Shown one piece after another: positions 17,769 through 20,723 of a stretch of 52,288 bases of DNA; within the stretch, counting starts at the first letter, position 1, and each line of letters opens with the position of its first letter. The notes under the pieces were generated by a model that did not search any database, had not been told where the DNA came from, and saw only the letters and a list, made by a program, of their open reading frames with translations. This DNA is from Actinomortierella ambigua (Eukaryota > Mortierellomycota > Mortierellomycetes > Mortierellales > Mortierellaceae): NCBI GenBank assembly GCA_016098155.1, contig JAAAJB010000218.1, positions 1 through 52,288 on the forward strand, in the 5' to 3' direction. A program made the translations under genes and the position numbers.

Positions 17769-20723
17769 TTACAAGTTGTTGAGGAGATCCTCGAGCGCAA
17801 CTTCGGTGCTCCACTTGGCGCGGATCAGCGCTGTCCGCACCTGTGGCTCTTCAAAGCCCATCTCCATTAGCCCCTGAACCTGCAATTGCTTCTCGGGCGG
17901 CAAATCGTCTGGTCGTAGTGTTGGGTTGTCATTGGCCACAGCAGCGGGAGCGGTATGGAGGGGACCGCTTCCAGCGGATTGTACAGGTTTGGCGTGAATC
18001 CGAGTCCAGTAACGTGCCATCTCCTCGAAGCCTGGTTTGTCATTCAGGTAGTGGCTGGCCACTTGTGCATCCTGTGTCGTTTGTTCCATGAGGGAGCCAG
18101 GCAACAAGAAACATAAAACAAGCACGTGCCCGGTCAGTCATGGTTTCAAAGCCAACGTTTGCTGGATCTTCCCCCACATTTTGAGTTGGGACCTTGCCAG
18201 CGTGTGTGCGTTCATACAGAAGGTTGCTGCTGAGAATGGCTTTTTACAAGCAAACCGCCCTTACCGAGATAGAGGATAGCCTCACTCTATACTGTAGCCC
18301 AACCCCTCAATTCCCAATTCCCTCTCTCTTTCTCTATCTCATCTTTCGCTCTCTCCCTCTTCCTTCTTCCTCTTTTCATTCATGCACCTCAACACAACTC
18401 GAATACATCTTCCCTCCTAGAGAACCCTCCAAAGCTAGGGCTAGATCGGCTTTGCTGTGCCCTTTTTTTTTTTCGTTTGTTTGCTTTGATCATTCATTTT
18501 GTCTCCGGGCGGAGATTTGTTCGCCTGCCACGGGTAGACAGCGAATACGATAGGTTCAAAATTACTTTGTAGTCGTGTGCTTGTGGCACGAACCAGCACA
18601 GTTGATAAAACTTTCCCATTCCCCACCTCTTTTACAACACCCCTTTCGCCTCATGACCCTCATCTCATTTTCTTTAGGATAGAATGCGCCGTTTTGTATG
18701 GTCTCAGGTCATACCGTTCTGGCGAACAGACAGGAGCTCCTGGACAGACCATTCTCTACATGTTCTTAGCCCCCTTCCTGTCCCTCTCTCTCCCGAGAGC
18801 TCTGCGTAGTGAAATGCCGGAGATTGAACATTGTTTCTCTGACCGTGTGCACACAAAGGTTAATTTTGCAACACCAAAGAGCCACCTCATCTCAAGTGGG
18901 GGCGGAGAGCGAGAGCGAGAGCGAAAACCTCGCTATGTGGCACAATTCCATGACCTGTGGTTCACGCAGGACAGGGGGCTCGCCCCCTCATGTTCCCACC
19001 AACCGAACGAGATATGCTGGTAGCACACCTCCAACGGTTCGGTCCACGCCTACTTCACCTTCAACTATGACCTCCGTAGGCGAGGATATTCCACACCTCT
19101 TCCCCCTTACTAATAATTTTCACCCCATCACCACGCCCTAACCGCCTTCTAGGCCTCACCGCACGAACAGAGAGCAGCACATTTTTCCCCTCGCTAGATA
19201 TTTCCATGTACTCCCCGAACGTATATCTAGCCTCGATTGGCTACCTGGGTTTGTTCCGTTATTCCACACAAATGCATGATACGCTCATCCTCCGTATTCT
19301 TTCCCGACTTGCATAACGGCGGCAAGAAAAAAGAAAAAAAAAAACAAGAACACCAGGGGTATTTCTCTCTATGCACAACCCTTTCAAAGTACATACCTGG
19401 GGATCATTCGGTTCCGGAGTGCAGAGTAGTGACTGAACCGAGAGTAGCGTTGAGAGAATCGTGAACGCTGGAGACCACTGGTTCTTCAAGATATCCAGAC
19501 AGATAGCACCCTTTCATAGCATTTTTCAATGTCCGCAATACCCAAGAATACAGAAAGAAAAAGGATTTAGCACGCCGCTCTCAGCCACAAAGTCGGGGAA
19601 TGGATCGATCGCCCTCCCACCTGTCTATCATCGCTATCTGGATCTGTTATCGCATCGCCAAGTTATAGAGCCCATGGTGACCTCCGTAGTGCAATGAACA
19701 ACCATTTGGATGTTGGCAGGGCAATTCACTTACAGTCTGCGAGCTGATGTTGGGGTGGTAGATCCTTGTGTCGAACTTGACTTTTGGAGCCTGAAAAGGG
19801 TACGCTGCAAGCGTACCATGAACCCCAGAAAAAAATTTGCCATTTCGCGTCAAAATAGGCCAAGCCCACTGCAAGAAAATAAACATCTTGTCTCGCTACA
19901 TGAGCACAGCAACTAAAAACTGGCACTTACTTTCAGGAATAACAATGTCGACGGTAAACACGCCCCCCTCATAAGGTGTCCCAGGTGGCCCTACACCGAG
20001 TGATGTTGGACACATGCAAGATGCAAGCGGTGATATCCCCCCCCCGTCCCAATGCGTTAGTACTGTTGTCACGAATAAAGATTAGGCAGTGCATGCACAC
20101 TCCTGACCAAATGGCTCTGAAAATAAAGATGTATCTGTTGGTACCTTGGAAGAAACCTAAAGATTGAGAGACAGCAATGTTATGAGGACCAAGACAGTGT
20201 TTGAATGGAACCGATATGAAGACTGCCACGCCTCTGATCATACTTCAGTGAGCACATTTTTTTCCTTCGTACCTTTCATATGCGCTGGTTCGGTGAATTG
20301 GTGGAAGGATGTGGCCAGACCAAATGTGGAGAAATGATGATATATCCAAACGAAGGTGCAACGATGCCAAAAATACGCGTCAGAGAAAAAGTCATCGATC
20401 AGCCTTGGTGCAACAGTTCCAGTACTTGAAAATCCTTTCGCCTCGCGACCGCGATCCCCATTTTTTTTTTTTTGGGAAAAGCACAGGCTGTCATCAGCAA
20501 TAGAGGCCTCCTACATACTCATATCGGTTTCGTCGACTGGCGTGAGCATAATCGCAGACGTTTTGTCATTTTGGATGTCTGCAATTTCCTGTGATGACAG
20601 TTGAACGGGCAAGATGTCGGGTTGTTAATCACAGCCTCAAATGCCCAAGTCTAGGACAGTGCCATTCCCTCTCCTTTGCTCTTTTTGTCCTACTTTCTGA
20701 ATTCGCCGAAGACGCTGCGACAT
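17769..20723 (-). CDS. ubc1: Ubc1/UBE2K-type ubiquitin-conjugating enzyme E2 with UBA domain (223 aa)
   Basis: Eight exons: 20723-20694, 20588-20519, 20284-20273, 20156-20145, 19990-19931, 19804-19734, 19510-19397 and 18071-17769, totalling 224 codons. The protein starts [19 protein letters not shown], continues [10 protein letters not shown] and YHPNISSQT, and has the catalytic Cys at residue 89 in GAICLDIL. After the E2 fold (about 1-150) a linker leads to a C-terminal UBA ([20 protein letters not shown], about 180-223). Yeast Ubc1 and human UBE2K have the same order and build Lys48 chains, with the UBA binding ubiquitin. Exons 3 and 4 are each only 12 nt and are needed to supply THMK and GFFQ, which align with yeast HHLKGTFLG. 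The last intron is 1325 nt and separates the UBA exon from the catalytic exons. Confidence 0.93.

Follow-up and report, generated by a model that had tools for sequence, protein, structure and literature searches.

A ubiquitin-conjugating enzyme (E2) gene of the Ubc1 type in the fungus Actinomortierella ambigua very likely contains, to judge from its DNA sequence, two adjacent internal exons of 12 nt each. The gene lies in a stretch of 52,288 nt (assembly GCA_016098155.1, contig JAAAJB010000218.1, positions 1 to 52,288), to which we refer as the window. We give a probability of about 0.93 to the reading that explains the data best, namely that the pair is constitutive and encodes most of strand β2 in a normal UBC1 gene. 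The original prediction, made from the same DNA, had proposed the two exons but stopped short of the whole gene; we extended the model to eight exons on the minus strand (20723-17769), which give 223 residues in a complete frame without internal stop. The seven introns measure, in order, 105, 234, 116, 154, 126, 223 and 1325 nt. The parts of the gene that are needed below are as follows, with splice-site percentiles relative to 89 introns of the same genome.

20694..20723, minus strand: exon 1, leaving in phase 0
20519..20588, minus strand: exon 2, encoding EIADIQ..DETDM plus one base (the first base of a codon, at 20519)
20285..20518, minus strand: intron 2, 234 nt, donor at the 17th and acceptor at the 3rd percentile
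20273..20284, minus strand: microexon 1 (ME1, exon 3), 12 nt, CGCATATGAAAG, phase 1-1, encoding (T)HMK(G)
20157..20272, minus strand: intron 3, separating the microexons, 116 nt, donor and acceptor both at the 84th percentile
20145..20156, minus strand: microexon 2 (ME2, exon 4), 12 nt, GTTTCTTCCAAG, phase 1-1, encoding (G)FFQ(G)
19991..20144, minus strand: intron 4, 154 nt, donor at the 15th and acceptor at the 13th percentile
19931..19990, minus strand: exon 5, beginning with (G)
19734..19804, minus strand: exon 6, holding the HPN motif
19397..19510, minus strand: exon 7, including C89
18072..19396, minus strand: intron 7, 1325 nt
17769..18071, minus strand: exon 8, with the end of the E2 domain, a linker, the C-terminal UBA domain and the stop codon

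Both yeast Ubc1 and human UBE2K consist of an E2 core plus a C-terminal UBA domain, and the assignment of the gene to this type was borne out. The Pfam domain UQ_con is found with 158.9 bits (cut-off 27) over profile positions 1-139 of 140, and a UBA domain (PF00627) is found at residues 185-217 with 25.0 bits as compared to a cut-off of 22.4. H78, P79 and N80 as well as C89, which we take to be the expected active-site cysteine, are invariant in 28 of 28 alignment rows. Among solved structures, yeast Ubc1 (PDB 1tte; also 1fxt) is the closest in sequence. This likeness to yeast Ubc1 and human UBE2K is one at the level of the protein, and the gene structure is that of UBC1 alone as read here. 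Since the UQ_con domain is complete and a C-terminal UBA domain is present, the last intron is credible as well. It is the longest intron of UBC1 by far, and two models from relatives (P0021 and P0092) have extra residues at the junction that matches it.

The two 12-nt exons themselves are confirmed as reported, as far as the DNA sequence goes. Their coordinates are exact, and each 12-mer occurs once on the minus strand. ME1 (CGCATATGAAAG) lies between ..AACCAG and GTACGA and ME2 (GTTTCTTCCAAG) between ..TCTTTAG and GTACCA, such that both are internal exons of at most 15 nt with canonical GT..AG introns on either side. With exon 2 ending one base into a codon, and with phase 1 maintained through both microexons, the exons are phase-compatible as proposed, and since all junctions are in phase 1, each form in which a microexon is skipped keeps the frame. 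The joined protein aligns with yeast Ubc1 without a gap across the region encoded by the microexons, in agreement with the residue-for-residue match that the original prediction had described. Furthermore, a spliced protein-to-DNA aligner, which was written for this analysis and had no prior knowledge of the claimed exons, recovered both of them unprompted with all four full-length homologues used as queries (P0003 from Benniella, P0010 from Mortierella alpina, P0046 from Debaryomyces and P0070 from Schizosaccharomyces japonicus), in 12 of 12 runs at intron penalties of 6, 10 and 14. Extra small exons that the aligner placed at the divergent ends of UBC1 (P0046 at penalty 6; P0070 at penalties 6 and 10) depended on the query and were discarded.

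A second line of evidence comes from the gene models of relatives. A protein search for UBC1 homologues was length-filtered, and the best 120 of 6345 matches, some of them nameless, were used. Among these are 25 models of the Mortierella lineage (P0001, P0003-P0025 and P0092), the placing of Actinomortierella having been looked up and that of most of the other genera being our assumption. The residues of both microexons are present in 14 of the 25 (P0003-P0012, P0014, P0015, P0018 and P0022), two of which, P0018 and P0022, have aberrant N-termini. The other 11 break at the microexons, in several ways: ME1 is missing from P0016 and P0017, and both microexons are missing from P0019 and P0021; P0001, P0020 and P0023 begin at a Met-Lys-Gly equivalent to the ATG within ME1, with ME2 missing as well from P0001; P0013 has 17 additional residues precisely between ME1 and ME2; P0024 and P0092 start downstream of both microexons, and P0025 is garbled.

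The residues at these breakpoints are informative. In the intact relatives, the first junction falls in a Met codon (A/TG) and the other two in Gly codons (G/GN), so that a skip in phase 1 must yield an AGN codon, i.e., Ser or Arg. The junction residues of the four skipping models are indeed S, R, S and S. When P0017 was aligned to the window, a model without ME1 was obtained, and P0019 gave a model without both microexons, in each case with the same junctions and in 3 of 3 runs. Taking the relatives' exon boundaries from the breakpoints of their protein models and from these junction residues, the microexon pair is probably common to the family. With the encoded residues present in 14 of the 25 relatives' models, we infer that the microexons are included in the mRNA.

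The remark that standard gene finders usually miss exons this small thus holds for UBC1, where 11 of the 25 listed models break. It fails as a rule, however, because 14 of the 25 have both microexons and a deposited A. ambigua model fits a 17-nt exon of another E2 (see below). For the UBC1 protein of A. ambigua, no row of that name is found among the best 120 of the 6345 length-filtered matches, some of which are nameless. This is compatible with a UBC1 model that is missing or badly cut in this species, which we mention as a lead only. Proteins named Actinomortierella ambigua do occur in the database that was searched.

With respect to the part of the protein concerned, we used an AlphaFold2 prediction for P0010 of M. 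alpina (34-row alignment, mean pLDDT 79.0, pTM 0.57). Strand β2 comprises residues 31-40 in this prediction and the equivalents of the microexons are residues 33-41, such that the pair would encode most of this core strand of the E2. H34, G37 and G41 are invariant and F39 is nearly so among 34 homologues that were picked as full length from the best 120. The prediction for P0019 from Entomortierella chlamydospora, which lacks both microexons, has a mean pLDDT of 60.0 and a pTM of 0.28; nearly all of residues 30-113 are below a pLDDT of 50, no strand of at least 3 residues is formed, and the E2 core is lost. These values are measures of confidence rather than of stability, and the double skip is the one form that was modelled. 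In the protein from the window, the UQ_con score of 158.9 bits falls to 145.4 without ME1, to 147.2 without ME2 and to 137.4 without both, a loss of 13.5 or 11.7 bits for one microexon and of 21.5 bits for the two. It had been suggested that skipping could tune the E2 fold, but this was not borne out, given that the core-strand residues are conserved and the double skip loses the predicted core. On the basis of these models, skipping likely kills the enzyme rather than tuning it; an error of prediction or an off state would be the better reading.

It might be argued that the match of the pair is a matter of chance, and that in the actual gene these residues come from elsewhere, for instance from a longer exon or from other pieces, or are lacking. 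A lone 12-nt exon with AG before and GT after it is readily obtained at random. With the rest held fixed and against four reference proteins, ME1 taken singly was equalled or beaten in 1, 0, 3 and 0 of 2000 shuffles and ME2 in 12, 11, 0 and 8 of 2000, and ME2 alone is therefore weaker evidence than the pair. However, exons 2 and 5 are separated by 528 nt, into which one or two exons totalling 24 nt can be fitted in just 10 ways (with AG..GT bounds and a minimal intron length of 40 nt). These were scored against 37 distinct 9-mers taken from 94 of the best 120 matches, leaving out P0001-P0025 and P0092. A score of 23.07 was obtained for the reported pair and one of -18.25, 41 units less, for the runner-up. 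Dinucleotide shuffles scored 12.69 at best (0 of 3000 reached the score of the pair) and random pieces of the window 5.42 at best (0 of 2894). A microexon pair by chance is thus very unlikely. As the pair was also chosen in all 12 aligner runs with full-length homologues, and the breakpoints in the relatives coincide with it, we give next to no weight to a gene that is built in another way. Hardly any more credible is that recent, introner-like intron insertions split a once larger exon in this species only. The regular spacing of 12 nt and the use of phase 1 throughout would be in line with such an origin, but a search of the 33.8 Mb genome with the 528-nt region, simple repeats and very frequent words being passed over, gave no match other than the region itself, and the models from other genera indicate the same junctions.

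More consideration is due to a regulated switch, in which conditional skipping would produce an in-frame E2 that is shorter by 4 or 8 residues and inactive or altered, thereby lowering UBC1. The phase-1 junctions, which leave all skipped forms in frame, and the weak splice sites of introns 2 and 4 would suit this, as would the annotated proteins P0016 and P0017, which match the skipping of ME1, and the existence of M. alpina models both with ME1 (P0010) and without it (P0017). Errors in the prediction of tiny exons would give the same pattern, though, and other models break in ways that are unlike any splicing switch, starting within ME1 or past ME2 or being garbled. Together with the strong conservation of key residues and the destruction of the predicted core in the absence of both microexons, this makes a switch improbable in our view. 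It would also be something of a long shot that all of the following hold together: the pair is as old as the Mortierellaceae, the central intron is removed first, and in-frame skips serve as an off switch by producing an inactive E2 that retains its UBA domain. If true, this would be a regulatory pair of adjacent microexons in an early-diverging fungus, for which there is no example among the literature matches listed. Constitutive inclusion in A. ambigua, combined with misannotation in the relatives, explains the observations.

How such a gene might be spliced can be sketched. The gene would be an ordinary Actinomortierella gene for an E2 of the Ubc1/UBE2K type, in which three phase-1 introns, spaced by 12 coding bases, set off two 12-nt exons in succession. 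Constitutive inclusion of both is probable, in view of the enzyme's need for them, the apparently common boundaries in the relatives and the conservation of the key residues. Simultaneous binding of both splice sites should not be possible on an exon of only 12 nt, so recognition probably takes place across the introns and not across the exons. The splice sites were scored with simple matrices built on 89 introns, each having at least 30 nt of exon on both sides, that were taken from modelled genes at 34 loci in the same genome (five low-scoring models excluded; intron median 155 nt, range 66-1897). Intron 3 has the best-balanced sites and may for this reason be spliced first, which would create a 24-nt composite exon, after which the weaker flanking introns would leave. 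That intron 3 would leave ahead of introns 2 and 4 is guesswork based on three introns; the order is inferred, as are mRNA inclusion and constitutive use. The acceptors of introns 5, 6 and 7 lie at the 1st to 3rd percentile and are as weak as that of ME1 (3rd), which argues against a special meaning of weak sites next to the microexons.

Conserved and often unannotated microexons, including adjacent pairs, are already known in plants. The sections drawn on here of a study of 10 plant species (PMC8831610) report 2,398 microexons of at most 15 nt, mostly unannotated, among them a rice transcript with adjoining microexons of 5 and 12 nt that was checked by sequencing of RT-PCR products, as well as adjacent clusters of 5-nt and 12-nt microexons in peptidase M1 genes. 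The introns flanking plant microexons are likely removed successively, the upstream one more often late. Like the plant microexons, which are 1-15 nt long, internal, coding, mostly unannotated and kept in position and phase across a clade, the UBC1 exons are short, internal and coding, and the pair is probably shared by related species, but it differs in that it belongs to a fungal lineage and another gene, consists of two exons of equal length (12 nt) and is known from DNA alone. The words "ubiquitin-conjugating" and "fungi" are absent from the main text of the plant paper.

In fungi, exons of 2-10 codons are described as widespread in the P450 family of Phanerochaete chrysosporium, where introns of 45-55 bp are frequent and microexons are discussed as candidates for alternative splicing in the portion of that article cited here (PMC1184071). 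UBC1 has longer introns (105-1325 nt), and its conservation points to constitutive use. Another fungal parallel is the microexon of Trichoderma Xlr2, which has conserved borders and was unannotated in relatives; unlike the UBC1 pair, which is read from DNA, it is reported as a glucose-dependent switch, and the same paper states, in the part considered, that functional microexons had not previously been described in filamentous fungi (PMC11121469). In the available text of one further match (PMC4462047), the word microexon is used solely for an aligner setting. No report of the UBC1 pair is found among the literature matches listed (for microexons with fungi, intron-rich genomes, Mortierella and ubiquitin-conjugating enzyme), and no paper on intron counts in Mortierella was found under the phrases searched.

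In this early-diverging fungus, the gene offers a clean example, open to testing, of two neighbouring microexons that are probably constitutive. To judge by sequence alone, it also implies that many of the public models for a central enzyme of the ubiquitin system are in error within one fungal lineage (11 of the 25 listed), and surveys inferring gene loss, truncation or a change of domains from such models would be misled.

We also surveyed 19 further E2 loci (all remaining contigs with a match) and 20 Ras-family loci (from 20 of 30 matched contigs) in the same genome. Convincing internal exons of at most 15 nt were found in 2 of the 40 loci with UBC1 included, five of which were too poor to judge; the two are UBC1 and RAB2. 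Exons of this size therefore look uncommon, though not unique, in this genome. The RAB2 gene (L034; G000 C360:10700-15000, minus strand) has adjoining internal exons of 22 and 11 nt. The 11-nt exon encodes the GVGK of the P-loop, and 0, 1, 1 and 0 of 2000 shuffles were as good; for the 22-nt exon, there were none in each of four tests. All six Mortierella-lineage RAB2 models that were inspected keep the P-loop, which argues that the failure of annotation is not general. Another E2 (L012) has an exon of 17 nt at L012:2395-2411 (plus strand), and its protein is 100% identical over 148 residues, the 17-nt exon included, to the deposited Actinomortierella ambigua protein P0241. A second protein named A. 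ambigua, P0242, is 91% identical to L012, and the name may cover several genes or strains. Three of 16 inspected Mortierella-lineage models of the L012 gene (P0262, P0271 and P0285) break near the 17-nt exon. The aligner models contain further small internal exons of 24 nt in UBC9 (L022) and of 18 nt in L041, and tentatively of 18 and 22 nt in L036. With small exons in other core genes, annotation of this genome needs microexon-aware methods.

Several further pieces were rejected. A 12-nt exon in the UBC13-type gene L014 proved spurious, the sequence running on without a break from an upstream ATG, as part of a 27-nt exon. By judgement, we also set aside pieces near divergent N-termini (3 nt in L013, 11 nt in L016 and 2 nt in L036) and C-termini (23 and 18 nt in L019 and 8 nt in L023), a last coding piece of 7 nt in L017, and small pieces in the low-scoring models L015, L018, L020, L025 and L026.

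As to the age of the UBC1 introns, the one at the junction of exons 1 and 2 (20694/20588) lies at the same codon and in the same phase in L009, L012 and L014 (the last with its N-terminus as corrected, with the ATG in the 27-nt exon), and may have been present early in the E2 family. No common ancestry was deduced from intron 3, which shares its column and phase with one of 14 other E2 models (L012), about one coincidence being expected by a rough count.

Finally, pieces of an SLX1-type structure-specific endonuclease (GIY-YIG, PF01541; SLX1_C, PF21202) are found on the plus strand at 20840-22281 of the window. They lie head to head with UBC1, which suggests that the two genes have a short promoter region in common.
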